A program made the position numbers and the translations under genes. A stretch of DNA of 48,677 bases from Pseudomonadota bacterium (GTDB taxonomy: Bacteria > Pseudomonadota > Gammaproteobacteria > Burkholderiales > Thiobacillaceae), in NCBI GenBank assembly GCA_030653935.1, contig JAURYL010000041.1, positions 1-48,677 of the forward strand. The letters run 5' to 3'. Shown piece after piece: positions 1,451-43,040 of this stretch; the first letter of the stretch is position 1, and every line of letters starts with the position of its first letter. The notes below the pieces were generated by a model, which saw only the letters and a list, made by a program, of their open reading frames with translations, had not been told where the DNA came from and ran no database searches.

Positions 1451-3461
1451 ATTTCCCGAGCATGGCTTTCAGAGCGGAGAGTCGGCGGCGCCCCTCTTCA
1501 CGGCCGTCGCCATCCGCGGTTTTCGGGACGCCGGCGCGCTTGATTTCGCTCTGGTCGATCTCGCTGAGAAAGCGCGAGGGTTCGCAACTGACCATTTCGC
1601 CGCCGCGTTTGCGCTTGCCGCAATAAGTGATGACCAGGCCACGGCGGGCGCGGGTGATGCCGACATACATGAGGCGTCTTTCCTCTTCCAGGCGCGGGCC
1701 TTCAAGGCACTCCCGGTGCGGCAGGATTTCCTCTTCCACGCCGACCAGATAGACATAGGGGTACTCCAGGCCCTTGGCGGCATGCAGGGTGGAGAGGCGG
1801 ACGGCGTCGGGGGTTTCGTCCGAACGGCCTTCCAGCAGGTTCATCAGGGTAATGGTCTGGGTGAGGTCGATCAGGGTTTTGCCGTCCTCCTCGCCCTTCT
1901 TGCTCAGCCACTCGACGAATTCGCGCACGTTTTCCCATTTGGCGCGGGCGGCGCGCTCGTCTTCCGAGTCGTACAGCCATTCCTCATAGTGGATCGCGGC
2001 GAGCAGTTCTTGCAGCAATTGGCCGGCGGGTTCTTTTTCCGCGCGCTCACCGATGCGGTTGATGAAGTCGCAGAACGTCAACAGCGGTTCCAGTTGTCGT
2101 GGCGGCAGTTGCGTCTGGAACCCAGTCTCGAAGGCGGCGGTGAACAGGCTGATGTGGCGCTGTCCGGCATGGTCGCCAAGTTTTTCCAGGGTCGCGGCGC
2201 CGACACCACGGCGGGGCGTGGTGACGGCGCGGATAAAGGCGGGGTCGTCATCCGGATTGGCGATCAGACGCATGTACGCGGAAAGATCCTTGATCTCGGC
2301 CTTGTCGAAGAACGATTGGCCGCCGGAAAGCACGTAGGGAATCTTGGCTTCGCGCAGGGCTTCCTCGAACAATCGGGCCTGGTGGTTGCCGCGATACAGG
2401 ATGGCGTAGTCGGCGAAGCGGGTGCGGTACTCGAACTTGTGCGCGGAGATGCGCAGGGCGACGGATTCCGCCTCGTGGCGGTCGTCGCGGCATTGCACCA
2501 GTTCGATATGGTCGCCGAGACCGTGTTCACTCCACAGGTTCTTTTCGTGCAGGCGTGGATTGTTGCGGATGACGCTGTTGGCGGCCGCCAGGATGCGCTG
2601 GCTGGAGCGGTAATTCTGGGTGAGCGGGATGATCTTGAGGCCGGGATAGTCCTGCCCCAGGCGGCGCAGGTTCTCCACATCGGCGCCACGCCAGGCGTAA
2701 ATGGCCTGGTCGTCGTCACCCACCGCCGTGAAGCGGCCGGCTGGCCCCGCGAGCAGTTTCATCATGGCGTACTGGGCGCCGTTGGTGTCCTGGTACTCGT
2801 CCACCAGGAGATAGCGCAAGCGCCCTTGCCAGGTGGCCAGCGCTTCCGGGTGCTCCTGGAATAGTTGCACCGGCAGACGGATGAGGTCGTCGAAATCCAT
2901 CGCCTGATAGGCGCGCAGGGTGTCCTGGTAGGCCTGATAGGCGACCGCATACTGGCGTTCGGCTTCATCGGCCGCCGCTTGCAACGCGCCGCCGGGTGTC
3001 AGCAAGGCATTCTTCCAGTTCGACACCACGGCGGCGGCCTGACGCAGGCCATTCTTGTCCGTGGTTTTCAGGATGTCTGCGAGGATTTGCTGGGCGTCGG
3101 CGGCGTCCAGTACCGAGAAGCGCGGCTTGTAGCTGATGCGGCGGGCTTCATGGCGCAGGATCTGCAAGCCGAGAGAATGGAAGGTGGAGACCGTGAGCCC
3201 CTTGCCTTGCTTGCCGGGTAGCAACTCGCCGACCCGCTCGCGCATTTCCCGCGCCGCCTTGTTGGTGAAGGTGATGGCGGCGATATGACGGGCATCGATA
3301 CCGCACTCGGTGGCGAGGTAGGCGATCTTGCGTGTGATCACCCGGGTCTTGCCGGAACCGGCGCCGGCCAGCACCAGCAGCGGGCTGTCGAGATACTTTA
3401 CAGCTTCCCGCTGCTGCGGGTTGAGGTCGGCGAGGAGGTTGGAGGTCGCTAAGGGGGTCAT
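1449..3461 (-). CDS. rep: ATP-dependent DNA helicase Rep (UvrD/Rep superfamily 1)
   Basis: Rep is a 3'-5' helicase that helps replication forks past protein blocks. The product is 670 residues, close to the E. coli length. Superfamily-1 motifs are in order: Walker A (AGAGSGKT, about residue 33), Walker B with DEYQDTN (about 220), QNYRS, and C-terminal TLHAAKGLEYPYVYL and VGITRARR motifs. I chose ATG 3461; a TTG lies immediately upstream at 3464. Neither start has a clear Shine-Dalgarno sequence, because the terminator of the upstream cytochrome c4 gene ends only a few bases before them. Confidence 0.95.
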   Translation of the reverse strand: MTPLATSNLLADLNPQQREAVKYLDSPLLVLAGAGSGKTRVITRKIAYLATECGIDARHIAAITFTNKAAREMRERVGELLPGKQGKGLTVSTFHSLGLQILRHEARRISYKPRFSVLDAADAQQILADILKTTDKNGLRQAAAVVSNWKNALLTPGGALQAAADEAERQYAVAYQAYQDTLRAYQAMDFDDLIRLPVQLFQEHPEALATWQGRLRYLLVDEYQDTNGAQYAMMKLLAGPAGRFTAVGDDDQAIYAWRGADVENLRRLGQDYPGLKIIPLTQNYRSSQRILAAANSVIRNNPRLHEKNLWSEHGLGDHIELVQCRDDRHEAESVALRISAHKFEYRTRFADYAILYRGNHQARLFEEALREAKIPYVLSGGQSFFDKAEIKDLSAYMRLIANPDDDPAFIRAVTTPRRGVGAATLEKLGDHAGQRHISLFTAAFETGFQTQLPPRQLEPLLTFCDFINRIGERAEKEPAGQLLQELLAAIHYEEWLYDSEDERAARAKWENVREFVEWLSKKGEEDGKTLIDLTQTITLMNLLEGRSDETPDAVRLSTLHAAKGLEYPYVYLVGVEEEILPHRECLEGPRLEEERRLMYVGITRARRGLVITYCGKRKRGGEMVSCEPSRFLSEIDQSEIKRAGVPKTADGDGREEGRRRLSALKAMLGK

Positions 3462-8953: not shown

Positions 8954-10126
8954 TTAGGCGCGCTGGCTGCGACGAGCGAGGCCCAAGCCGAGGAGGCCAA
9001 GGCCAAGCAGTGCCAGGATGCCCGGCTCGGGGACGGCCTGAGCCTGCGCGCTACCCGCAACGTTCTGCGCGAAGGTCAGTTCGTAGAAGAAATAACCATC
9101 TTGCTTACCATCGAGACCCGACAGATCGAAAATTTGCTGGAAGCCGGCGCCGGCTACGCTGGTTTTGGTGAAATCGTTACCGAACGAACGGGACAGGGAG
9201 AAGTTCAACTCGTTGCTACAATTCTGGCCATAGACGCCATTGCCATCGGTGTCACAGTTCGTGTTGCCCAGGCCGGCGTTCATTGCGGCGACTGGGACTA
9301 AGGAGGGAGGCGAACCCGTACCGGACAAGGTGTCCTGGTAGATGGTGAAGGTCACGTTACGCGAAGCCGTCGAGCCCGGATCGCCCGCATCGGTCTGCAT
9401 ATTGACGCTGTAGGAATACTTGTAATCCAACATCATCAGGCCAGTCCAGCCCAGGTTGGTGCCGTCATAGGTGCCGGCCGGATCATCGAAATCCAGATCC
9501 GTCATGTCGATGTAGCCGGTAAAGGTATTGGTCGCCTGCGAGGCATACGATACCAGGCTGGTGCTGCGGCCTTCCACGACCAGTTGGGACCGCTCACCTG
9601 CCGACTGGAGTACGTTGAAGGGGTTGAAGTTGACGCCCAGGGTGTCCATGTAGGAGTCGGCACGGGAATATTGGCCGGTCTGGCCTTTAGCCGTGAACTC
9701 ATTCACGTTCACATTGGGTACGGCGCCGGTATACGACTCGGCGGCGTCGACCGGGAACGTCCCGGGTGGCGGTACATGGCTGTTGAAAGTCTCGGATGCG
9801 TTGTGCGCATCAGCGCCACCCGCAGTGTTGGACGCGGCGGTGTTGCCGCGGAAGGTCGCGGCACGCGGATTGTACTCGTTGGAGCCGGGACGGGCCCAGA
9901 CTGTCGTCGTGCCTGTACAGGTGTCGACAAGGCAGTTGTCAAACTTGCCGTTGCCGTTGCCGTCTGTGAACAGCTGTTTCGTGTACTGGCCGAACAGGTT
10001 GATATTGTTCAGCTCGAAGTAGCTGTAGTAGTACGAATCCGCTTGGGCGCTCATCGGGGCCAGACCGATGCCTGCCGCCGCAACCAGTGCGCCGTAAAGG
10101 GCCTTCTTGTTGAATACTTGTGTCAT
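8954..10126 (-). CDS. PEP-CTERM sorting domain protein (exported surface protein)
   Basis: A 390-residue exported protein with a signal peptide (residues 1 to about 30, ending MSAQA). The long extracytoplasmic body is rich in Asn, Thr, Ser and Gly. The C-terminus is a typical PEP-CTERM tripartite signal: VPEPG, a hydrophobic helix and ARRSQRA. Such proteins are cleaved at PEP by an exosortase (XrtA type), which is not in this window. Four Cys in the body could form disulfides. No known domain was recognised in the body. ATG 10126 is chosen because AGGAGA lies 6 nt upstream and the signal peptide begins there. The gene has a sigma-54 promoter 92-107 nt upstream, an obvious target for PrsR. Confidence 0.9.
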   Translation of the reverse strand: MTQVFNKKALYGALVAAAGIGLAPMSAQADSYYYSYFELNNINLFGQYTKQLFTDGNGNGKFDNCLVDTCTGTTTVWARPGSNEYNPRAATFRGNTAASNTAGGADAHNASETFNSHVPPPGTFPVDAAESYTGAVPNVNVNEFTAKGQTGQYSRADSYMDTLGVNFNPFNVLQSAGERSQLVVEGRSTSLVSYASQATNTFTGYIDMTDLDFDDPAGTYDGTNLGWTGLMMLDYKYSYSVNMQTDAGDPGSTASRNVTFTIYQDTLSGTGSPPSLVPVAAMNAGLGNTNCDTDGNGVYGQNCSNELNFSLSRSFGNDFTKTSVAGAGFQQIFDLSGLDGKQDGYFFYELTFAQNVAGSAQAQAVPEPGILALLGLGLLGLGLARRSQRA

Positions 10127-10217
10127 TTGAATCTCCTGGAAGTTAGTCACCCGTTTGTCGGGGCGGCCGTCTGGTTACTCATTCGGGCTGGCTTGCCAGT
10201 CCTGTTGGGTTTCAATA

Positions 10218-10233
10218 AGCAACGACCGTGCCA
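10218..10233 (-). promoter_or_regulatory. Sigma-54 (-24/-12) promoter of the PEP-CTERM gene
   Basis: On the minus strand 10233-10218 reads TGGCACGGTCGTTGCT, a full match to the sigma-54 consensus TGGCACG-N4-TTGCW with exact GG-to-GC spacing. The predicted transcript start is near 10207, giving a leader of about 80 nt to ATG 10126. Confidence 0.9.
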
Positions 10234-10251
10234 TGATTTTTGATGTTATCG

Positions 10252-10264
10252 TAACCCATTGATA
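10252..10264 (-). promoter_or_regulatory. Putative IHF binding site
   Basis: The minus strand reads TATCAATGGGTTA, an exact match to WATCAANNNNTTR. It lies at about -45 to -57 from the predicted start, between the candidate enhancer and the sigma-54 promoter, in an AT-rich stretch. This is the normal position for IHF at activator-dependent sigma-54 promoters. Confidence 0.6.
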
Positions 10265-10304
10265 TTTAATGTTTAATGTGTGGAAATTGGAATGCTTGTT
10301 CATC

Positions 10305-10324
10305 GACCTGGATGCTTCCAGGTC
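10305..10324. promoter_or_regulatory. Candidate enhancer (UAS) palindrome for PrsR
   Basis: GACCTGGA-TGCT-TCCAGGTC is a perfect 8-bp inverted repeat centred about 107 bp upstream of the predicted transcript start. That is the usual distance for NtrC-family enhancers. Assignment to PrsR is inference from the nearby prsK-prsR genes; the PrsR site is not known to me. Confidence 0.45.
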
Positions 10325-10379
10325 GGGACTGTAAAAACTACCGACAGCCAGCGTGGTTCGTCTCCAGGGGGGATATCCC

Positions 10380-10533
10380 TAAGGGAGTCGGAAATTGCCG
10401 ATGTTCCGTTTTTGGTGGTGCTGTCGGGATGCAGTGCTAGGCGGGCCTGTGCCGTGTGGCTGACCACACAAGCGAGGAACAACGACGCAATGCGCCCGTC
10501 AGTGCCGCCCAAAAGGGGATATTGGCTGTTTCC
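10380..10533. repeat. 154-bp long palindromic MITE-like element
   Basis: The ends carry AGGGAGTCGGAAA (10382-10394) and its exact inverse (10519-10531). The two arms remain similar inward for about 50 nt around a centre near 10457, giving a long imperfect hairpin with no coding capacity. Size and structure recall the element at 6168-6328, but their terminal repeats differ. Confidence 0.7.
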
Positions 10534-10588
10534 GACTCCCTAACTGGCATGGCGAGACGCCACCCCTGATGATGAAACCGGAAGCCCA

Positions 10589-10657
10589 TGTAGCGCCGGC
10601 GTCTCGCCGGCGTCTTTTTGATCAGGCCCACGAAGCCGGCGAGACGCCGGCGCTACA
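10589..10657. repeat. REP-like palindrome, family A copy 1
   Basis: A 23-bp perfect inverted repeat (10589-10611 and 10635-10657) begins TGTAGCGCCGGCGTCTCGCC and surrounds 23 nt containing a T run. The outer bases TGTAGCGC match the palindrome at 43630-43695, so both belong to one repeat family with differing inner arms. Confidence 0.85.
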
Positions 10658-10919
10658 GTGGAGGCTCTGACTTGTGTTTCACGTTAAGTGCTATCGCGCC
10701 GTCCGTAATGACGTCCAGCACTCCGGTAGCTTGTCGGGATTTGGGGCTGTTGGCGGTGAAATCACAGAGATGGCGGTGGGTTACTAACGGATTTTTCCCC
10801 CATGGGACGACTATGGGGTGGCGAGTATTGGAAATCTCGTTAGAAAAATTGCGATTGTTCTGGGGTATTCTCGCCATCGACGATCAATGTCCCACTGATT
10901 AGTGGCGCCGTGTTGAGGA
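10658..10919. other. Gene-free stretch before the RND transporter stop
   Basis: No credible gene is present. There are small palindromes only: CCCCAT/ATGGGG at 10798-10818 and CCACT/AGTGG at 10892-10905. There is also a loose GGCGAG/CTCGCC pair around 10820-10874. No clear terminator for the minus-strand RND gene was found. Confidence 0.5.
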
Positions 10920-15571: not shown

Positions 15572-18376
15572 TTATTTACCACCAGCGCTTTCATACAAGC
15601 GTCTCGCTTCCCGCCAATTCGGGAAATATATCTGGCTGCCGAATGCGGGGCGCAAGGTGTCGATAATCTTGTTTCGTTGCCCGGTCGCGGCGTAAGCGCT
15701 TGCGAGGTGGTAGCGGAATGTGGGATTGCCTGGGGCAAGTTGCACCGCCTCCTCGAGTAGCTTGATCGCGCGGGTCTGATTGGATGTGTCCAACAGGAGT
15801 TGTCCCAGTGTATTGCGCACGTTGGCTTCACCCGGCGCGGATTGCACCGCTTTCTCGGCCAGGCTTATTGCGCGGGCCGGATCCGATCCACGTAACTGGA
15901 GGGCCAGATTGTTCAGGGCGGGGACGTTGGTCGGCATGTCCTTCAGTACAGATTCGTACAGCGTGATCGCTTCCTTGCCGCGGCCGGCTTTGGCGTGCAC
16001 TTCCGCCAGATACATGCGCAACTCGCTGACCTTGGGGTATTTTCTGATCCAGTCGGTGATGAGCTTGTCGGCTTCGGCTGCATTCTTATTGGAAGCGAGC
16101 GCCTGGTGCAGGCGGATGACCCGATTCGGCGAGGCTTCAAGGGCAACCGCCTTGCGAAGCGGCCCTACCGCCTCGGAGAAACGCCCAAGCCGCAACAAAA
16201 TCTCGCCCTCGTGGTCATGCCCGACAGCGCTGTCGGGGTGGTGAGTCGAGACATGTTTGGCATACGCCAGTGCCTTGGGAAAATTGCCAACTGTGGCTTC
16301 CAGTCTGAGTAAGCCAACGTGGAGTTGCAACTGATTGGATCCCAGCGATTTCGCGTTTTCCAGGCTGGATCGGGCTGCGTCGATATTGCCCGTGTCCAGT
16401 TGCGCCAAACCAAGCAACATGGCGGCATCAGCGGATTTCGGCGACATTGCGACGGCTTGTGCGTAGGAGGCCAGCGCGCGCTCCGTATCACCGATGGCCA
16501 TGAGCGTTTTCGCCTGGGCGATCATGGCGGCGGTGGAACCGGGGGTTGCGGTGACGGCGGCCTTCGCTTCGGCCAACGCCTGCTTCTTGTTTCCGGTCGA
16601 TAGGTGATGCTCGATCAAGCGCGACCGAAGTGGCAGTTGGTTAGGCTGTTCCTTGATGGCCTTTTCCATCCAGCTCACGTATTCGGCATGCTTTTTCTCC
16701 ATGGCCGCCAGGTTTGCAAGCGCCAGCATGGCATCGACACTGCGTGGATTGCTGCCCAGCACACTCTGGAAACGATTGCGCGCGTCGCCGATCTTGCCAT
16801 CACGGAGGTCGAGTGACGCAAGATTGGCGGCTGCGGGGTAATAGGCGGCATCCTTCCGGAGGATGTTTTCCAGGATGTTCCTGGCTTCGCCTCGTTTGTT
16901 CAGCGCCAGCAAGGCACCGGCTTTCAAGTTCATCGCGATCTGGCTATCGGGAAACTTCTTGCCGTACTGTTCCGCCGCGAGTAATGCTTTCTCGGGTTGC
17001 TTTCGTTCCAGCAGCCATTGGAACAACATCTCATCCGCAATGCCTGATTTCTTGTCGAGGTCGCTGGCAACACGCAGGCGAGCAAGGGCTTCATCCATAT
17101 TGCCGAGTGATCGCAGGGCGCGCGCTTGCAGGATCGCGATTTCCGCGGACCTCGGCGCGAGCGCGGCGGCCTTTTTAAGGATGGTCGCGCCCTCGGCGTA
17201 CTGGCCGGATGCGATTTTTGCCTCGCCGAGCAAGGTGAGCACCTTTGCGTTGTTCTGATCGGTGGCCGCGAGTTTGGCCAGTATTTCCTCCGCCAGCCTG
17301 GGTTCACCCTGGCGCAGGTGGGAACGCGCCACAATCAAGGCACTGTCAATCTGATTGGGCTCCATGGCCAGGATACGGGTAGCCGTTTTCTGGCTGACTT
17401 CATAATTCCCCAATCGTTCGTTGATCTCGGCGGATAGCGCCAGTACCTGAAGATTGTTGGGATAGGCCTTGAGTACCTGCTGGATAGAGCTGTTGGCTTT
17501 CCTAAGGTTATCCTCACCGCCCAAGCGCATCTCCAGATGAGCGCGCAAGCTTTTTGCCAACATACCACCCGGTTGCCGGCTTTCCATGTCCGCAAGCGTC
17601 TTTCCCGCGTCAGCCAGTGCGCCTTCACGAATCTGGATGTCTGCAATCGTGGCCAAGGCACGCATATCGCCCGGGCTTAATTGCTTGATGCGGAGATACT
17701 CCTTGAGCGCGGCGTCCACCTTGTCTTCGCGCAGGAACAGATTCGCCTTGATATGGAGAACCTCGGTCGAGCGGGGATTCGCCTGTTCGACACCATTGAG
17801 TATTTCCAATGCCTTGCCGGAGTCCTTGTTGTAGACAGCCAAACCTGCCTTGGCGAGTTGGATTTCCTCGAACAGGCCGACATGGCCTGCATTGGTCAGT
17901 ATCTTTTCGCCTTCCTGAATGGCTTTGCTCGCCAGCTCAGGGTTGCCCGTGGCCAGATGGGACATCGCCTGTTTGGCGAGTATCGTGGCGTAGGCGGACG
18001 AACTGATGCCGGTTTTCGGAATTTCCAGGGTGATCAGTTCCTGGAATTTGCCCTGTTTCAGTTGGGCTTGCGCGCGTAGTGGCAGTATCTGTTCTGCGGA
18101 GGCGCCATGCTTGCTCGCCTTGAGCAGTTCATCCTCGCTTGCCTGCCACTCTCCCTTTGCCTGCAACGACTGCGCCAGCAGAACCCTGGCCTCGATATTC
18201 TCGGGCTGTTTCTGCAGGGCGGTCTTCAGATAAACGATGGCCTGCTGCTGCTGCCCGGCCAGGATGTCTTTCCTGGCCATGTCGGTCAATTCTTCCGGTG
18301 TTTTGCTGTTGCATCCAAATAGCAGCGTGATCGAGAAGAGGGTCGCCAAGGTGCGGGTGTTGAGTGGCCTATGCAT
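15572..18376 (-). CDS. prsT: PEP-CTERM system TPR-repeat lipoprotein PrsT
   Basis: A 934-residue lipoprotein with the lipobox LLFGC (Cys22). Nearly the whole length after that is tetratricopeptide repeats of about 34 residues. This matches the PrsT family of betaproteobacterial EPS/PEP-CTERM loci in length and lipoprotein form. Its biochemical role is not known; TPR scaffolds usually organise protein complexes, here at the envelope. ATG 18376 has AGGGG 7 nt upstream. It is 15 nt downstream of a second TPR gene of similar size, which suggests tandem duplication within the prsKR operon. Confidence 0.9.
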   Translation of the reverse strand: MHRPLNTRTLATLFSITLLFGCNSKTPEELTDMARKDILAGQQQQAIVYLKTALQKQPENIEARVLLAQSLQAKGEWQASEDELLKASKHGASAEQILPLRAQAQLKQGKFQELITLEIPKTGISSSAYATILAKQAMSHLATGNPELASKAIQEGEKILTNAGHVGLFEEIQLAKAGLAVYNKDSGKALEILNGVEQANPRSTEVLHIKANLFLREDKVDAALKEYLRIKQLSPGDMRALATIADIQIREGALADAGKTLADMESRQPGGMLAKSLRAHLEMRLGGEDNLRKANSSIQQVLKAYPNNLQVLALSAEINERLGNYEVSQKTATRILAMEPNQIDSALIVARSHLRQGEPRLAEEILAKLAATDQNNAKVLTLLGEAKIASGQYAEGATILKKAAALAPRSAEIAILQARALRSLGNMDEALARLRVASDLDKKSGIADEMLFQWLLERKQPEKALLAAEQYGKKFPDSQIAMNLKAGALLALNKRGEARNILENILRKDAAYYPAAANLASLDLRDGKIGDARNRFQSVLGSNPRSVDAMLALANLAAMEKKHAEYVSWMEKAIKEQPNQLPLRSRLIEHHLSTGNKKQALAEAKAAVTATPGSTAAMIAQAKTLMAIGDTERALASYAQAVAMSPKSADAAMLLGLAQLDTGNIDAARSSLENAKSLGSNQLQLHVGLLRLEATVGNFPKALAYAKHVSTHHPDSAVGHDHEGEILLRLGRFSEAVGPLRKAVALEASPNRVIRLHQALASNKNAAEADKLITDWIRKYPKVSELRMYLAEVHAKAGRGKEAITLYESVLKDMPTNVPALNNLALQLRGSDPARAISLAEKAVQSAPGEANVRNTLGQLLLDTSNQTRAIKLLEEAVQLAPGNPTFRYHLASAYAATGQRNKIIDTLRPAFGSQIYFPNWREARRLYESAGGK

Positions 18377-18391
18377 GTTGTTACCCCTGAG

Positions 18392-21241
18392 TTATCGGGT
18401 CGAGCCACGGAGGGCGCGCAGTTTGTCACGCGCTTGTTCTTTTTCCGGGAAGTCGCTCTGGCTGGTCAGTAAACGGTCGAGTTCCATGACGGCCTCGTGC
18501 TTGTCGCCCGCTTGCTCGAGGGCGAGCGCCAGATGCCAGCGGATTTCCGGATTGTCCGGTGCTTGTTTGATCGCTTCCCGGAGATGGGCGACCGCGCGTT
18601 TTGGCTGCCCGGATTGCGTCAGGAGCCAGCCAAGCGTATCGAGTACGGCAGCGTTGTTGGGAGCAATCTTGTAGGCCTGCTCAGCTATTTTCAGGGCCTC
18701 CGCCTTGTTGTCCGCTCCCAGCATCCAGGCAAGATTGTTGAGCGAGACGAGGTCGCGAGGGTTGCTTTGTACGAGCGCGCGGTAATGCGAGATTGCCTCG
18801 GAATAGCGTTTGCCAGTCATGGCTACCTGCGCCAATACATGGCGCACGCCCGTGTCGGTCGGGTGAGTCCTGAGCCATTCCTCGAGTTGTTTTTCTCCCT
18901 CTCTGGCCTGCCCCCCCGCGACGTACGCCTGATGGGCGCGCAGCATCAATCTCCCCTGCTTGTTCAGTTGCGCGGACTTGACGAAGAGTTTTGCAGCATC
19001 CAGATGGCTTTTCTTGCCATGCAGAAGCTCGGCTTCCACCGCATAACCTGCTCCAGAAGTTGGAATACGGGTTTGTAGAGCACGCGCAATCTTGATGCCT
19101 TCGTCGAATTTGCCAACCTGCCCCAGCAGAAGTGCTTTGTGGATGCTGGCATCGGTATAGTCAGGGCGAAGTCCCAGTGCCTTGTCGAGTGTTTTTAGCG
19201 CGGCTTCCCGATCCTTTGCCACGGATTGCACCAGTGCAAGACGGTAGTGCGCGAGTGGATTGCCGGGGCTTGTCGCAACCCACTTCTGATAGCTTGCGAG
19301 CGCATTGGCGGTGTCATTCCGCAACAACTGGGCGGCGCCGATAACGTCCAGGAACTCCGGCCTGCCCGTGGTTTCAAGTGCGGTACGCGCCTCCACCAAC
19401 GCTTTGTCGGCGTCACGCTTGTTCAGCCAGTATTGCGCGAGCATCAAGCGCGCCGGCACTTCGGAAGGCTCGGCTTTTTTTGCCGCCTCGAGCAGACGGA
19501 GATACTCCGATTCGTTCTTGTCGAGGGCGGCAAGTTGGGCCAGGGAAACCAGCGCGCGAGCGTTCTTCGGGTCCTTTCCGAGTACCCCCTGAAAACGCGC
19601 GCGAGCGGATTTGATGTCTTTGTTGGTCAGATCAAGCCGCGCCAGGTTGCTGGCCGCCGGGAGATATCCCGGATCGATTTCCAACGCCTTGCCGAAGTGC
19701 CGGCGCGCTTTTGTCGTGTCGCCGCTGAGCAAGTGAATGATGCCACGCAGGTTTTCGGAAAGCGGCAGGCGCGGCTGCTTGGCGTCAAGTTTGGCAACGA
19801 CCTTGAGCGCTTCGTCATAACGCTTGGACTTGACATGGGTCATGACCAGGAGAACCTCGGCCTGGTGGTCCGTGTTTTCCTTCTCGGCCAGTTCGGTGAG
19901 GGATTCCACCGCGCCTCGCTCATCGCCACTGGCCATGCGACTGGCGGCCAGTTCACGAATCAACGCGGTGTTGTCGGGCGCCAGCGCGGCCGCCTTTTCC
20001 AGCTTTTTCCGCGCTTCCTTGTATTCACCCTGGCGCATGGCGATATTGCCTTGCAAGGAAAGCAGTTGGATATCGCCATCGTCATCTTTGAGATTGGCGA
20101 TCAATTCCCGCGCGCGCGCCGCCTGGCCGGATTCAAGCATGGCGGTGGCGAGCAGCTTGCGCGCCAGCGCGTGGTTGGGCGCGGCTTCGAGCACTCGGTT
20201 CAGGTGGGTGATGGCGTTCTCGCGTTTGCCCTGGCTGAGGCTGATGGCGCCCACCAGGAGGTTCGCCGGGGCGAAGTCGGGCGCGCCACGCAGGACTTCC
20301 TGCAATTTGTTGTTCGCCGCGTCAAAATTCTTGCGCCGAAATTCGATCAGGCCTTCGAGGTAGCGCCCCATCAGGTTATTTGGCGCGTGGGTATGCAATA
20401 TCTTCAGTTCTGCCTGCGCCTGGTCGAGGTTCGCCGTCCCGAGGTGGTGCTGGGCCACCGCCAGCCGCGCCGGCAGATTCCCGGGTTCAAGCGCCAGCGC
20501 CTTGCTGTAGGCGGCGAGTGCCTGGTCGCCACGCTTCAGGGCGCGAAGCAGGTCGGCCCGCATGACCAGCAGGTCGACACGTGTGCCCGCCTTGGCGATG
20601 GCTTTTTCCACCAAGGCCAGCGCCAGTGCCGCGTCTCCGCCGGTAAAGGCCATGCCGGCGCGGATCGCGAGGGTGTCGGGATGCTCCGCGACCAGTTCGT
20701 CCGCCTGGCGCAAACTGGTCTGCATGTTCTCCTGGTCGCCGGTCAGGGCGTAGGCGTGGGCGCGTAGCGCCAGTATCGTCGCGTTGCTGTCGGTGGGGGC
20801 CGATGGCAGCGCCGTGATTTCATCGAGGACTTTCTTGGGTTGGCGCGTGAGCAGCAGGGTGCGTGCCAACAGGATGCTGGCTTCCGGCGATTGATAACCT
20901 TTTTCTATTGCCAGCCGCAGTTCTTTTTCCGCATTGGTGAAATCATTGTCGGCGTAATAAGTACGGCCGAGGAGAAACCTGGCTTCGCCATTGTTCGGTT
21001 GTTGTTGCAGGGCGTTCTTGATCTCGATGCGGGCGCCTTTGCGGTCGCCGGCCGATTCCAGTTGCTTCGCGCTGGCGAGGCGTTCTTCCGGACTGGCATG
21101 GCCACGGGTCAGGTAATAGGCGCCGGCGCCGAGGCCAGTGAAAAGGATCAGGGCGGCCGGAACGAGCAAGCGTTTTTTTTCTGCCAGGCGTTGCGAGAAA
21201 GAGCGCTTGGAACGACGCGAATGATTGTTCTGGTTACTCAT
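18392..21241 (-). CDS. Second PrsT-like TPR protein, membrane-anchored
   Basis: A 949-residue TPR protein very similar in plan to the neighbouring lipoprotein. It starts with a basic cytoplasmic segment (RRSKRSFSQRLAEKKR) and a single membrane helix near residues 28-45 instead of a lipobox. About 25 degenerate TPRs follow, predicted to be periplasmic. It shares block-like segments with its neighbour, such as FQGVLGKDPKNARAL versus FQSVLGSNPRSVDAM, so the two are paralogues. AGGAAA lies about 10 nt upstream of ATG 21241. The order is prsK - prsR - this gene - prsT, with short gaps. A paralogous pair with different anchors could span inner and outer membranes. Confidence 0.85.
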   Translation of the reverse strand: MSNQNNHSRRSKRSFSQRLAEKKRLLVPAALILFTGLGAGAYYLTRGHASPEERLASAKQLESAGDRKGARIEIKNALQQQPNNGEARFLLGRTYYADNDFTNAEKELRLAIEKGYQSPEASILLARTLLLTRQPKKVLDEITALPSAPTDSNATILALRAHAYALTGDQENMQTSLRQADELVAEHPDTLAIRAGMAFTGGDAALALALVEKAIAKAGTRVDLLVMRADLLRALKRGDQALAAYSKALALEPGNLPARLAVAQHHLGTANLDQAQAELKILHTHAPNNLMGRYLEGLIEFRRKNFDAANNKLQEVLRGAPDFAPANLLVGAISLSQGKRENAITHLNRVLEAAPNHALARKLLATAMLESGQAARARELIANLKDDDGDIQLLSLQGNIAMRQGEYKEARKKLEKAAALAPDNTALIRELAASRMASGDERGAVESLTELAEKENTDHQAEVLLVMTHVKSKRYDEALKVVAKLDAKQPRLPLSENLRGIIHLLSGDTTKARRHFGKALEIDPGYLPAASNLARLDLTNKDIKSARARFQGVLGKDPKNARALVSLAQLAALDKNESEYLRLLEAAKKAEPSEVPARLMLAQYWLNKRDADKALVEARTALETTGRPEFLDVIGAAQLLRNDTANALASYQKWVATSPGNPLAHYRLALVQSVAKDREAALKTLDKALGLRPDYTDASIHKALLLGQVGKFDEGIKIARALQTRIPTSGAGYAVEAELLHGKKSHLDAAKLFVKSAQLNKQGRLMLRAHQAYVAGGQAREGEKQLEEWLRTHPTDTGVRHVLAQVAMTGKRYSEAISHYRALVQSNPRDLVSLNNLAWMLGADNKAEALKIAEQAYKIAPNNAAVLDTLGWLLTQSGQPKRAVAHLREAIKQAPDNPEIRWHLALALEQAGDKHEAVMELDRLLTSQSDFPEKEQARDKLRALRGSTR

Positions 21242-21296: not shown

Positions 21297-22655
21297 CTAC
21301 TTCAAGCCGAAACGGTTCATCAGGTCATACAGCGTGGGCCGGCTGATGCCGAGCATCTCGGCGGCGTGCGCGACGTTGCCGTTGCTGCGGCCCATGGCGC
21401 CGAGCACGGCGCGTCGTTCCGCCTCATCGCGCACCTGGCGCAAATTGAGTGGCGGCTCGTCCTCCTGCGCCGACGTGCTGGCCAGGCCCAGGTCTTCCTG
21501 CGAGATGTTGGGGCCATCTGACATGATGACGGCGCGTTTGATGGTGTTTTCCATTTCGCGGACGTTGCCCGGCCAGGCATGGGCTTCTATCGACTGGATG
21601 GCTTCCGCCGCAAAACCGCGCAAGGCGCGACCTTGGGCCTGGGCGTGGCGTTCCAGGAAGGCGTGGGCGAGGAGGGATAAGTCGCCCTGCCGCTCCCGCA
21701 GGGGAGGAATGCGTATGGAAATTTCGGATAGGCGGTAAAACAGGTCTTCACGAAAACGACCGTCCTTGATCAATTCTTCAAGGTGCTGATGGGTGGCGGC
21801 GACCACGCGCACATCCACCGCGATTTCGCCGCGGCCGCCCAGGCGCTCGATCACCCGCTCTTGCAGGAAGCGCAACAACTTGGCCTGGAGCGGCATCGGC
21901 AGGTCGCCGATTTCATCGAGAAACAGGGTGCCGTGGCTGGCGTATTCGATCTTGCCTATGGTTTGTTTGGCGGCGCCGGTAAAGGCGCCCTTCTCATAGC
22001 CGAACAACTCCGATTCCAGCAGGTTCTCCGGGATGGCCGCGCAGTTGATGGCGACGAAGCGTTCCTTCACGCGTGGCGACAATTCGTGCAGGCCGCGCGC
22101 GAGCACTTCCTTGCCGGTGCCGGATTCGCCGAGCAGCAGCACCGAGGCGTCGCTCGGCGCCACTTTCTCGATGGTGCGGCAGACCTTGAGCATGGCCGGG
22201 TCGCTGGTCAGCAAGCCCTGTAGCGGCTCGGCGCGCGCGCGCGCCGAGAGCTGCCGGTTTTCCTGCTCCAACGCGAATACGCGGAAGGCGCGGGCGATGA
22301 CGATCTTGAGAATCTGTTCATCGAAGGGTTTGTTGTAGAAATCGAACGCGCCCATGCTGATCGCCTTGACCGCGTTGGCGCGATCCTGGTTGCCGGTGAC
22401 GACGATGATTTTTGTGCTCGGGCAGAGTTGCAGGATTTGCTGCAACGCCGCCAAGCCTTCGGTCGCGCCGTCAGGATCGGGCGGCAGGCCCAGGTCCAGC
22501 AGCACCACGGCCGGCTCGAACCGACGAATATGGACCAGCGCGGCCTCACGGTCGACGGCGACCAGCACTTCATAATCGTCGAGGCTCCACTTGATCTGTT
22601 TCTGCAGACCGACATCGTCCTCGACCAGCAAAATTTTCGCGGGCTTGTCGCTCAT
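21297..22655 (-). CDS. prsR: PEP-CTERM system response regulator PrsR (sigma-54 activator)
   Basis: A 452-residue NtrC-family regulator. The receiver domain (1-120) has phospho-acceptor Asp54 in LLDLGLPP and Lys109. The AAA+ domain has Walker A GESGTGKE (176-183), the sigma-54 contact loop GAFTGA (223-228) and Walker B TLFLDEIG (243-250). A Fis-type helix-turn-helix lies at the C-terminus (ISRPTLYDLMNRFGLK). It opens promoters with RNA polymerase-sigma-54. The start is ATG 22655, giving an ATGA overlap with the prsK stop; an upstream in-frame extension lies inside prsK. A likely target is the sigma-54 promoter at 10218-10233. Confidence 0.95.
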   Translation of the reverse strand: MSDKPAKILLVEDDVGLQKQIKWSLDDYEVLVAVDREAALVHIRRFEPAVVLLDLGLPPDPDGATEGLAALQQILQLCPSTKIIVVTGNQDRANAVKAISMGAFDFYNKPFDEQILKIVIARAFRVFALEQENRQLSARARAEPLQGLLTSDPAMLKVCRTIEKVAPSDASVLLLGESGTGKEVLARGLHELSPRVKERFVAINCAAIPENLLESELFGYEKGAFTGAAKQTIGKIEYASHGTLFLDEIGDLPMPLQAKLLRFLQERVIERLGGRGEIAVDVRVVAATHQHLEELIKDGRFREDLFYRLSEISIRIPPLRERQGDLSLLAHAFLERHAQAQGRALRGFAAEAIQSIEAHAWPGNVREMENTIKRAVIMSDGPNISQEDLGLASTSAQEDEPPLNLRQVRDEAERRAVLGAMGRSNGNVAHAAEMLGISRPTLYDLMNRFGLK

Positions 22656-24712
22656 AGCTCGGTATTCACGGGTAGGTGGCTGGCGGAAGGGATCAATGGG
22701 AAGCGCAAAGTGAAGCGGCTGCCCTGCCCGGGGTGGCTCTCGACCAGGATGTCGCCGCCCAGTTCCTGTGCGTAGGTCTTGCATTCATAAGCGCCAATAC
22801 CCATGCCGGTTCCCTTGGTGGAGACGAAAGGCTGGAACAGGCGCTCCCGGATAAAGGCGTCATCCATGCCGGCACCGGTATCCGCCACCTCGATTTCCGC
22901 CCACTGATCACTGGTTTTGAGTGTAACACTCACCTTTCCCGTGTAAGGCGTCGCCTCAATGGCATTCTGCACGAGGTGGCCGATTACCCGTGTGAGCTTT
23001 TCCCGCTCGGCGCGCACGCGCAGGTCAGGGGCAAGAATGTTCAACGAGGGCTTGAGGCTGAATGCGTTCTTGGAGCGGATGACCTCCTCCAGCAAGCCCG
23101 CCAGGGGGACCTCGCCGCTGCTCACGACATTCGGTTGGTCGCGCAGTTTGATCAGCATCCGGTTCATCCGGGCGACCGAGCTCTCGATGGTCGCCAGCAT
23201 GTCTTCCTGGAATGCCGGCTTGTGCTTGTGGCGCTCGGCGTTGGCCAGCAGCAGGGAAAGTTGCGCCACCAGGTTCTTGATGTCATGAACCACGAAGGCG
23301 GCGGCTCGGTTGAAGGATTCGAACTGGCGCGCCACGGTCAATGCCTCGGCGTCGCGTGCCTGGGCAAGGTGCGCGCTGGCCTGGCGCGCAGCTGTTTTCA
23401 ACAGGTCGCTGACTTCCCAATCGAACGTAACCTTGCCCAGCGAATCGGCCAGCACCATGACCCCGAGCAGATTGTCGTGCCAGAACAAAGGGATCACCAG
23501 CCAGGCTCTGGCGTTGCCGGCCAGCCAGGCGGGGGGGGTGGCTTCGCCCAGTAGTTCCGGCTGATCTTCGCATTCATGCAGGTCGAGCACCCAGTGGCTG
23601 GTTTCCAGAAATGCCGCGAAAGGGTGGTTTTCCGAGAACTGACCATCCAGATCTGACCAGTTCCAATGGGCGGCGCGGCGGAAATGGCCGTCATCCTGTT
23701 TCAGCCAGAGCGCGGCGGCCGGGCTTTCGACCAAACCCGCCATCGCTTCGAGGCTGCGCTCATGCATCCGCGCGCCGGGGCTGCCGGCGGCCAGCATGGC
23801 GGTGAAACGCAACCACTCTTCCCGGTAATCGTAGCGGTAGTGGAAGAAATGCTTGGACAGGAACACCCGCAAGCGCGCGCGCGCGACGCCGGAAAAGACC
23901 GTGACCAGCAGCAGCGCGATGGCGCCGAACAGGAACACGGTTTGCAGGACGGTGCCCCAGTCGCCGCCGACGATGCGGAGGTAGTAGCCCGCCGCCGCCA
24001 TGAGCATGAGGTAGATGCCCGCGCCGACCAGGGCGACGGAATGAAACGCCATGCGATGTGAGATGGACAGCGTTCGAGTGCCCGGGCGGCGCCGCAATGA
24101 GACCCACAACAACGGCACCAGCAGCGCGTTGACCGCGCCACGCGCCGCCCAGGTATCTGCGCCCACCCCGCTGAACAACATGGCTTCGGAATAGAGATAG
24201 AAGTCGTAGGCGAACATGCCGCCCAGCGCCAGGGAAAGAAATTTGATCCCCCAGCGTTCCTGGGGACGCGCATTGCGATAGAACTGCTCCACCAGAACCA
24301 TGCCGAAGATGGCCATCAGGTTCGGAATCAGCACATGGGCCAGCAAGCTGGTCAGCCTGCCCGGAAACAGCATCGCGGCGCCCTGGGCAACGAGGGCGGC
24401 GACCCCGAGAAACACCAGGCCTCGTCCCAGTCCGGAAAGCCCGGGCGAATCGAAGCTGTCGCCGGCGCGCAGCCGCTTCACGCCAAGCCAGAGAAACCAG
24501 AGCCAGGCCAGATTCCGGCCCATTTCCAACAGGGCGACCAATTCCAGGCCGGCACCAAAGTGGGCGTGGACGGCCGCGGCCAGTGCCCAGAGGCTGGTGA
24601 TCGCGGCGGGTCGCGACAAGCGGAACGCCGTGTTGTCGGAACGCCAGCTGGCGACGGCCAGCAATGCGAAAGCCACGGCGCCCAGGCCGTAACTCGCGCT
24701 GGCGATCAGCAT
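22652..24712 (-). CDS. prsK: PEP-CTERM system sensor histidine kinase PrsK
   Basis: A 686-residue membrane kinase. About eight hydrophobic helices fill residues 1-280, followed by a GAF-like domain (about 300-450) and a kinase core. Phospho-acceptor His476 is in VVHDIKNLVAQ, the N box is QNAIEA (Asn583), G1 is DTGAGM (611-616) and G2 is KGTGMGIG (633-640). It should phosphorylate PrsR in response to an unknown envelope or metabolic cue. It overlaps the sugar transferase stop by one base (TGATG) and the prsR start by four, so the three genes form one tightly coupled unit. Confidence 0.95.
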   Translation of the reverse strand: MLIASASYGLGAVAFALLAVASWRSDNTAFRLSRPAAITSLWALAAAVHAHFGAGLELVALLEMGRNLAWLWFLWLGVKRLRAGDSFDSPGLSGLGRGLVFLGVAALVAQGAAMLFPGRLTSLLAHVLIPNLMAIFGMVLVEQFYRNARPQERWGIKFLSLALGGMFAYDFYLYSEAMLFSGVGADTWAARGAVNALLVPLLWVSLRRRPGTRTLSISHRMAFHSVALVGAGIYLMLMAAAGYYLRIVGGDWGTVLQTVFLFGAIALLLVTVFSGVARARLRVFLSKHFFHYRYDYREEWLRFTAMLAAGSPGARMHERSLEAMAGLVESPAAALWLKQDDGHFRRAAHWNWSDLDGQFSENHPFAAFLETSHWVLDLHECEDQPELLGEATPPAWLAGNARAWLVIPLFWHDNLLGVMVLADSLGKVTFDWEVSDLLKTAARQASAHLAQARDAEALTVARQFESFNRAAAFVVHDIKNLVAQLSLLLANAERHKHKPAFQEDMLATIESSVARMNRMLIKLRDQPNVVSSGEVPLAGLLEEVIRSKNAFSLKPSLNILAPDLRVRAEREKLTRVIGHLVQNAIEATPYTGKVSVTLKTSDQWAEIEVADTGAGMDDAFIRERLFQPFVSTKGTGMGIGAYECKTYAQELGGDILVESHPGQGSRFTLRFPLIPSASHLPVNTEL

Positions 24713-25803
24713 CAGCGCACCCCTTTACCCAGAACCACGACTTGAGCCGTCTGGAGCAGGATCATGAGGTCGAGAAATAGACTGTGGTTTTTCACGTAGT
24801 AAAGGTCGTATTGGAGCTTGGACATGGCGTCTTCCACACTCGCGCCGTAGGAGAACCGCACCTGCGCCCAACCGGTGATACCGGGTTTGACGCTGTGGCG
24901 CGCATGGAAAAAAGGAATCTGGGCGGCCAGTTCTTCGACAAAAAAAGGACGCTCGGGGCGGGGGCCGACAAAGCTCATGTGGCCGAGAAATACATTGATG
25001 GTTTGCGGCAACTCGTCGATGCGCAGGCGGCGGATCAGGCGTCCGACGCGGGTGGTGCGGTCGTCGTTTTCCGCGGCCCAGACCGGGCGGCCGTCTTTCT
25101 CGGCATCGGTAAACATGCTGCGGAATTTGTAGATGGTGAAGTGCTTGCCATATTGCCCCACGCGCACCTGGGTGTAGAACAGCGGCCCCTTGCTCTCCAG
25201 ACGGATGAGCAAGCCGGTCAGCAGCATCAAGGGCAGGGTGAGCAGGAGAAAAATGCCGCTGACCAGAATGTCGAACAAGCGCTTGACCAAGTCACGGGTG
25301 ACGCCCTGGCTGAAACCGTCGGAAAAAATCATCCAGCTGGCATTGATCGCCTCCAGCGGCAGAATGCCGGTCTGGCGCTCGAAGAAGGCGGGCAGGTCGA
25401 GCACGCTGACGCCGCGCAGCTTGCATTCCAGCAATTCGGATACCGGCAGGCCTCCGCCGCGGCGTTCACGAATGGCGACCACAATTTCATCGATGGCCAG
25501 TTTATCCACCACCTCGCCGATGCTGCCGCTCTCCGCCAGCACCCGCTCATGCGGCACATAGCTATGCAGCGACCCCATCGGCAGATAGCCGACGATATCA
25601 AGACCCTGCGCCTGTCCCAGGCTGGCCAGTTCATCGATCTTGGCCGCGCGGCTGCCGGTGCCGAGCACCAGGACCCGCTTCTTGAACAGATCGACCTTGC
25701 CCCATTCGATGAACAACAGCCGTATCAGAATGATGGACAGGATGGAAATGGTCAGGGCCGAGATGAGTTCACCATCGCTGGCGAATACTTCTGGCAGAAC
25801 CAT
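24712..25803 (-). CDS. EpsB-type sugar transferase, C-terminal catalytic part (interrupted gene)
   Basis: 363 residues with a Rossmann-like domain (LVLGTGSRAAKI, about residue 45) and then a complete polyprenyl-phosphate sugar-1-phosphate transferase module. The module shows KRLFDILVSG, the LLTLPLMLLTGLLI helix, KFRSM, and FVGPRPERP, and ends in a hydrophobic segment. This enzyme would start the EPS repeat unit on undecaprenyl phosphate. It resembles the EpsB/PEP-CTERM-associated family of about 460 residues, but the N-terminal helices are missing. They are encoded just upstream in the same frame behind one TAA stop (25822-25824). ATG 25803 may allow re-initiation. The catalytic half looks intact. 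Confidence 0.85.
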   Translation of the reverse strand: MVLPEVFASDGELISALTISILSIILIRLLFIEWGKVDLFKKRVLVLGTGSRAAKIDELASLGQAQGLDIVGYLPMGSLHSYVPHERVLAESGSIGEVVDKLAIDEIVVAIRERRGGGLPVSELLECKLRGVSVLDLPAFFERQTGILPLEAINASWMIFSDGFSQGVTRDLVKRLFDILVSGIFLLLTLPLMLLTGLLIRLESKGPLFYTQVRVGQYGKHFTIYKFRSMFTDAEKDGRPVWAAENDDRTTRVGRLIRRLRIDELPQTINVFLGHMSFVGPRPERPFFVEELAAQIPFFHARHSVKPGITGWAQVRFSYGASVEDAMSKLQYDLYYVKNHSLFLDLMILLQTAQVVVLGKGVR

Positions 25804-42547: not shown

Positions 42548-42811
42548 ATGCATATGTTCGAATTTGACGAGACGAAGAACCAGACAAACCTGCTCAAGCA
42601 CGGAATCGACTTTATTGACGCGCAGGGCCTATGGGATGACCCAAGGCTGTTGGAAATTGCGGCAAAAACAGAAGACGAGCCCCGATATTTGGTGATAGGG
42701 CTTATCAACGGCAAGCACTGGTCCGCCGTTGTGATCTACAGGGGGGCGAATATTCGGCTCATTTCTGTCCGTCGATCACGAATCGAAGAGGTGGCACTGT
42801 ATGAAAGCTAA
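42548..42811 (+). CDS. brnT: BrnT family toxin (type II toxin-antitoxin)
   Basis: An 87-residue protein of the BrnT/DUF497 family, RelE-like ribonucleases. Family features are FEFDETKNQTNLLKHGIDF at the N-terminus and the central DEPRYLVIGLINGKHWSAVVIYRG. The C-terminal strand-helix IRLISVRRSRIEEVALY contains the usual Arg residues. ATG 42548 is first; ATG 42554 is possible. It overlaps the antitoxin gene by 11 bp. Confidence 0.92.
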   Translation: MHMFEFDETKNQTNLLKHGIDFIDAQGLWDDPRLLEIAAKTEDEPRYLVIGLINGKHWSAVVIYRGANIRLISVRRSRIEEVALYES

Positions 42812-43040
42812 AGCGTTCGATCAAAAATTTGATGAAGGTGGTGACATTACCGCTTTCCTGGAGTTGTCCAAGGCGAAGCGAGTGTTGCAGAAGCAACGCC
42901 GCGTTAACGTTGATTTTCCTACGTGGATGATTGAGTCGTTAGATCGAGAAGCCGGAAAACTCGGCATCACCCGGCAATCCATCATCAAGGTTTGGCTCGC
43001 GGAGCGCCTTGAAGCGTCCGCAAATGGGCATGGCACCTGA
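42801..43040 (+). CDS. brnA: BrnA/CopG-type antitoxin
   Basis: A 79-residue antitoxin. The N-terminal acidic part (AFDQKFDEGGDITAFLEL) probably wraps the toxin. The C-terminal ribbon-helix-helix (RVNVDFPTWMIESLDREAGKLGITRQSIIKVWL) binds DNA and should repress the operon. Toxin first, antitoxin second with overlap is the normal order for brnTA. Confidence 0.9.
   Translation: MKAKAFDQKFDEGGDITAFLELSKAKRVLQKQRRVNVDFPTWMIESLDREAGKLGITRQSIIKVWLAERLEASANGHGT

Follow-up and report, generated by a model that had tools for sequence, protein, structure and literature searches.

The window, i.e., the whole 48,677-nucleotide stretch of DNA analyzed here, carries on its minus strand a gene for a 390-residue PEP-CTERM protein (8954..10126). 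The protein matches PF07589 with 25.7 bits (cut-off 20.7), which bears out an earlier note on this DNA, made from the sequence alone; by eye it starts with a signal-peptide-like N-terminus, and it ends in a VPEP...RRSQRA C-terminus. It has no family-level name, the EDSAP-1 model giving 73.9 bits against a cut-off of 100, and no ortholog was found in 60 relatives at E ≤ 1e-10. The minus strand also encodes PrsR (21297..22655), an NtrC-like response regulator (TIGR02915, 735 bits, cut-off 502.6) that contains a GAFTGA motif and a Fis-type HTH and whose start was set at an internal ATG (MSDKPAK), as well as PrsK (22652..24712), the XrtA/PEP-CTERM system histidine kinase (TIGR02916, 777.9 bits, above cut-off). 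Both genes lie 11 kb from the promoter described below, in the same gene block, just as the earlier note had stated for PrsR. Further minus-strand genes encode an EpsB_2 glycosyltransferase of the XrtA/PEP-CTERM system (24712..25803, TIGR03013), the TPR protein PrsT (18392..21241, TIGR02917, 741 bits) and a second PrsT-like TPR protein (15572..18376, TIGR02917, 537 bits). The two prsT-like genes thus stand side by side (15572-21241), both above the TIGR02917 cut-off. Elsewhere in the window, two small overlapping ORFs at 42548-43040 resemble what we take to be a BrnT/BrnA toxin-antitoxin pair.

The promoter region of the PEP-CTERM gene spans 10218-10346. Read on the minus strand toward the gene, it consists of a 17-nt dyad TGTCGGTAGTTTTTACA (10346..10330), which is the candidate PrsR box and predicted PrsR binding site, 4 bp, a 22-bp palindrome CGACCTGGATGCTTCCAGGTCG (10304-10325) with 9-bp arms CGACCTGGA-N4-TCCAGGTCG, an IHF consensus TATCAATGGGTTA (10264..10252, minus strand) that exactly matches WATCAANNNNTTR, a sigma-54 -24/-12 site TGGCACGGTCGTTGCT (10233..10218, minus strand) with a predicted +1 near 10207, a leader of ~92 nt between the -12 element and the start codon, and the ATG at 10126. 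The distance from the box to the GG of the sigma-54 site is 97 bp; the IHF consensus lies 65 nt downstream of the box and starts 32 nt ahead of the GG. The earlier note had found three of these elements correctly, i.e., a consensus-perfect sigma-54 site, an exact IHF consensus upstream of it and a perfect palindrome, although the palindrome arms are 9 bp rather than 8 bp long and the fourth element, the 17-nt box, was missed. Its distance of about 107 bp between the palindrome and the “start” holds when counted from the predicted +1; the ATG is 178-199 bp away, so the “start” must have meant the predicted transcription start near 10207. Farther upstream, a MITE-like element of ~168 bp (10377-10544) with inverted ends AGGGAGTCGGAAA...TTTCCGACTCCCT starts ~30 bp upstream of the box, and among the matches listed it has copies on five other contigs (C9, C33, C44, C12 and C121) with 81-95% identity. 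It is followed by a REP-like palindromic repeat GTAGCGCCGGCGTCTCGCCGGC... (10586-10659), of which more than 30 copies occur in the genome, 40 of 234 first-look candidates having been scored.

In the text of Haft et al. 2006 (PMC1569441), 99 of 167 proteobacterial PEP-CTERM genes are described as preceded by a 17-nt motif 1 with TTTACA at its 3′ end, which is followed, after a spacer of 62.8 (SD 10.6, range 32-92), by a sigma-54 motif 2; PrsR was predicted there to be the protein that binds motif 1. The window box, TGTCG-N6-TTTACA, fits motif 1 in its length of 17 nt and its TTTACA 3′ end, as far as the textual description of that motif allows comparison. Since both the box and the sigma-54 site fit the 2006 description, the promoter class is already known, and the window promoter is, as judged from its sequence elements, a further member of it. 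Across the genome, TGT-N8-TTTACA has nine matches as compared with three for the reversed control, and eight of the nine read TGTCG-N6-TTTACA. This box together with a sigma-54 core stands before four of the six PF07589 genes of the genome, with gaps of 53, 64, 88 and 97. These observations suggest that the box at 10330-10346, not the palindrome, is the likely PrsR site. In contrast to the box-bearing promoters, the PF07589 gene on contig C41 has a near-perfect sigma-54 site TGGCACGGTAAGTGCT without a box; over the 110 positions scanned, the best match differs from the box by 4 mismatches. Another activator may therefore act on some PEP-CTERM genes, and the C41 gene is a candidate for control by another enhancer-binding protein. 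For the PF07589 gene on contig C73, no box with at most one mismatch was found on the contig, and only loose GG/GC matches lie upstream.

Apart from the PF07589 genes, a 216-aa ORF is a possible PrsR target, having upstream of it a one-mismatch box at C133:29578 and, after a spacer of 51, a sigma-54 site; the ORF shows no evident PEP-CTERM tail, and its first 70 residues have no Pfam match above cut-off. Other matches to the box were discarded. Those at window positions 3386 and 12710, inside long frames of the opposite strand, are attributed to chance, no promoter-like sigma-54 core being present, and those in C25 and C77 likewise lack such a core, with the C77 match near the contig end. The genome scan for the perfect sigma-54 consensus proposed in the earlier note does return two sites, yet the reversed control also returns two, and the consensus alone is not significant. 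The second site lies ahead of what is presumably a FlgB-like flagellar gene, and its contig contains no box with at most one mismatch.

The arrangement of box and sigma-54 core recurs widely in other genomes. It occurs with a gap of 41-71 in 73 of 117 family genomes and with a gap of 72-102 in 75 of 117, with no match in the reversed control in either range, whereas gaps of 10-40 and 103-133 are represented in only 4 (reversed control, 1) and 10 (reversed control, 0) family genomes, respectively. It is the box combined with the sigma-54 site, not the sigma-54 consensus alone, that places the arrangement above chance. From the matches listed, 325 in number, 306 distinct promoters were obtained and 304 were read after two had been left out, 216 from the family genomes and 88 from a second collection of genome contigs, which was scanned for gaps of 72-102 only and with TGGCACG required. 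All were found by exact patterns with one box per promoter, and box variants thus fall outside the set. In loci chosen by the true inner spacing of the core, N7, there are 306 matches with N7 as compared with 3, 3, 2 and 1 with N5, N6, N8 and N9, respectively. By likeness of the downstream proteins or sequences, the 304 promoters group into 135 clusters, the largest of which holds 39. A PEP-CTERM-like product, as recognized by a regular expression rather than a profile, is encoded by 80 of the 106 complete downstream ORFs of the cluster representatives, a further 29 ORFs being incomplete.

The palindrome behaves differently. The earlier note had proposed that GACCTGGA-N4-TCCAGGTC is the PrsR enhancer and should recur ahead of other PEP-CTERM/sigma-54 promoters. 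The element does have features that would suit such a role, as it is a perfect 9-bp dyad ~70 bp from the TGG, within the published spacer range; in a post hoc test, only 0.01 such inverted repeats are expected in the 251-bp intergenic stretch; and its pattern with up to three mismatches occurs at 21 places in the genome versus 7 for the reversed control, which points toward a shared palindrome. Half of the element is present in the spacers of two other promoters. However, no other copy with fewer than two mismatches exists in the 3.8-Mb genome, the nearest match having two; the contigs that carry the other five PF07589 genes contain no match even when three mismatches are allowed; and with up to two mismatches, a search of 315 loci (1.12 Mb) that contain PrsR-type promoters recovers just the window's own copy. 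Moreover, the regulon-wide box lies only 4 bp away. The palindrome is thus rejected as a PrsR site, being unique in the genome and without recurrence in the 315 loci, and we consider its role as PrsR enhancer very improbable. What stands of the proposal is its other part: the promoter is of the sigma-54/IHF type and very probably a PrsR target.

Nor do inverted repeats in general appear to be a loop element of these promoters. The window as a whole contains 16 perfect inverted repeats with arms of at least 9 bp and loops of 3-12, versus ~4 expected. In the 304 promoters, 7 inverted repeats with arms of at least 9 bp are found versus 0.8 in shuffles; this excess is due to related promoters, since it vanishes when one promoter is taken per cluster (1 of 135 versus 0.3). 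With arms of at least 7 bp, the spacers of 7 of 135 clusters contain an inverted repeat versus 5.5 in shuffles, i.e., there is no enrichment. A general loop element is therefore rejected, the excess being gone after related promoters are collapsed. The palindrome could instead be bound by some other protein, such as a regulator specific to this gene, or act as a structural element that modulates this one promoter. It is unusual for its location, and proteins bound within the loop can modulate looping, as described for synthetic enhancers in the text of PMC4740811; yet to find one inverted repeat with 9-bp arms in 135 loops is unremarkable (0.3 expected in shuffles), the palindrome does not recur in the 315 loci, and the gene has no ortholog in the 60 relatives in which conservation could be seen. 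We regard such a private site as unlikely. Most likely, the palindrome is incidental loop sequence.

The distance from box to core follows the DNA helix. Among 300 matches listed (150 per gap range), the spacings form a comb with R=0.72 at a period of 11.3 bp. With one promoter per cluster (135), R rises to 0.75 at 11.3 bp, as compared with a maximum of 0.31 in 2000 draws of a jittered null. The class means are 52.7, 63.9, 75.2, 86.4 and 96.9 bp, i.e., ~11.2 bp per turn, and 124 of the 135 clusters lie within 2 bp of their class median, where ~45% would be expected under a uniform distribution. When clusters are bootstrapped, the phase analysis yields a period of 11.14-11.56 and regression one of 10.93-11.39. 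Loops in vivo have larger effective helical repeats, and a period exceeding 10.5 would be in line with this. The window promoter, at 97 bp, sits on this ~11.2-bp grid, three turns beyond the 64-bp class. The spacing also appears to change in steps: among 704 pairs with homologous downstream proteins, which are not independent of one another, the difference in spacing is 0-3 bp for 563, 4-7 bp for 11, 8-13 bp for 96 (88 of them at 10-12) and at least 14 bp for 34 (29 of them at 32, 35 or 42-46). With increasing loop length, the standard deviation of the spacing within a class goes up from 0.7 to 1.9 bp (Brown-Forsythe p 0.027); this is no more than suggestive that long loops are positioned less tightly, which is the behavior expected of a twist spring.

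Such quantized spacing might be artefactual, produced by the inclusion of related promoters in the sample or by the search pattern. Many of the promoters are indeed related, with 39 of 304 in the largest cluster, the family spacings derive from 150 matches listed per range, and the genome-contig collection covers gaps of 72-102 only. However, the comb persists at one promoter per cluster and in each of the two separate collections taken alone (83 family clusters and 59 genome-contig clusters, R 0.76 each). It is also present in loci picked by record title as alphaproteobacterial (13 loci, R 0.82; R 0.79 without two from Asaia) and gammaproteobacterial (8 loci, R 0.79). In addition, the search pattern permits every gap within its range, and the jittered null stays far below the observed value. 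An artefactual origin of the comb is hardly credible.

IHF-like sites are enriched in the loops and occupy phased positions. Exact WATCAANNNNTTR is present in 18 of 304 spacers in one orientation and in 31 of 304 in the other, while the reversed patterns yield 0 and 0; allowing one mismatch, the counts are 62 and 83 by orientation versus 16 and 18 for the reversed patterns. Consistent with this, AATCAA/TTGATT emerges de novo as the most enriched 6-mer (33 of 135 clusters versus 11.3 expected). Counted from the box, sites in one orientation (48 clusters, R 0.89) lie near 20, 31, 42 and 53 nt, and those in the other (30 clusters, R 0.60) mainly near 33, 44, 54 and 65 nt; none of 5000 random placements matched these R values. 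In the orientation and spacing class of the window promoter, 5 of 12 IHF sites with at most one mismatch, the window's own included, are at 65 nt from the box, which is the commonest slot; measured from the other end, the same 12 sites start 33 nt before the GG in five cases and 32 nt in two. No IHF-like site with at most one mismatch was found in 66 of 135 cluster representatives, or in 57 of 135 clusters if any member counts. Phasing is seen as well in the clusters that lack an IHF-like site (R 0.71-0.75), and IHF as its sole cause is therefore rejected.

From the elements observed, their recurrence in different genes and species, the phased spacing and the enrichment of IHF-like sites, we infer that 10218-10346 very probably belongs to the PrsK-PrsR regulon as an enhancer-dependent promoter, with PrsR at the box and an IHF-bent loop in helical register. 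PrsR and IHF occupancy, looping, promoter activity and signal input via PrsK are predicted steps of the following mechanism. Sigma-54 polymerase would wait at the -24/-12 site in a closed complex. Once activated by PrsK, PrsR would bind the 17-bp dyad 97 bp upstream of the GG, and IHF would bend the DNA between box and promoter where its site exists. The AAA+ ring of PrsR could then reach the polymerase on the correct helix face and open the complex, and one PEP-CTERM surface protein would be switched on. Loops of 53-97 bp are short and stiff in bending and twist, and the box must therefore face the promoter; longer loops would be tolerated when whole turns are added. The window loop, three turns longer, is still in phase because the ~11.2-bp grid accommodates both its length and its IHF slot. 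One box was sought per promoter, while activators of the NtrC type usually occupy two dimer sites.

Alternatively, the promoter may use sigma-54 yet respond to a different enhancer-binding protein, with the box and its phasing inherited and unused. PrsR at the box is a prediction from sequence, and the C41 gene has a sigma-54 site and no box. On the other hand, the box is common to other PEP-CTERM promoters and is in phase, prsR is located in the same gene block, and a PEP-CTERM gene of Zoogloea is reported in the text of PMC9012009 to be under PrsK-PrsR control. Activation by a different protein is distinctly improbable, and PrsR acting at the box remains the preferred reading. At the level of the regulon, we consider it probable that the PrsR promoters are natural, cross-class, torsionally gated enhancers, with loops at integer turns (53/64/75/86/97 bp), IHF sites in phased slots in either orientation, and loops evolving mainly by whole turns, such that genomes record an effective helical repeat of looped DNA of ~11.2 rather than 10.5 bp.

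IHF-assisted sigma-54 promoters of the NifA/NtrC type carry an activator site, an IHF site and a -24/-12 promoter in that order. The window promoter has the same order of elements, yet its activator and box are different. It also resembles the promoters of Haft et al. 2006 (PMC1569441), which, by the description there, share motif 1, sigma-54 motif 2, a PEP-CTERM gene and the presence of prsR, prsK and prsT. With motif 2 taken to start at the TGG, the window spacer is ~96 nt, which would be slightly above the published range of 32-92 and falls inside the range of the 135 clusters. The main text of that paper contains no mention of IHF, integration host, periodic or phase. Another relative is the pepA promoter of Aquincola tertiaricarbonis RN12 (PMC9850573, 2023), for which the text gives a mapped start, a TGGCAC/CTGCTT -24/-12 site and RpoN1 dependence by experiment; the likeness to the window lies in the PEP-CTERM gene, the -24/-12 site and a predicted enhancer upstream, and the main text does not mention IHF, integration host, helical or spacing.

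The phasing principle itself is not new, since 61 natural LuxO/sigma-54 enhancers of Vibrio qrr genes are reported to have loops of ~80-120 bp clustered ~11 bp apart (Brunwasser-Meirom et al. 2016, PMC4740811, as described in its text). Those enhancers, however, belong to one genus and one small-RNA gene family, whereas the PrsR promoters precede different genes, mostly PEP-CTERM-like, in several proteobacterial classes, with loops of 53-97 bp and IHF-like sites in phased slots. A helical comb with IHF slots in PrsR promoters was not found in print in the open-licence literature searched. The comb covers more promoters and a wider bacterial range than the one precedent found, the 61 Vibrio enhancers, and it offers a direct in vivo test of torsion and IHF constraints on short activating loops. 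For PrsR binding tests, the element to use is the box rather than the palindrome. The arrangement also yields a genome-searchable rule, i.e., TGTCG-N6-TTTACA, then ~53/64/75/86/97 bp, then GGY-N7-TTGC, often with a phased IHF-like site. Such a rule would define the PrsR regulon, which reports on Zoogloea and Aquincola link to the surface proteins that these bacteria need to form flocs.
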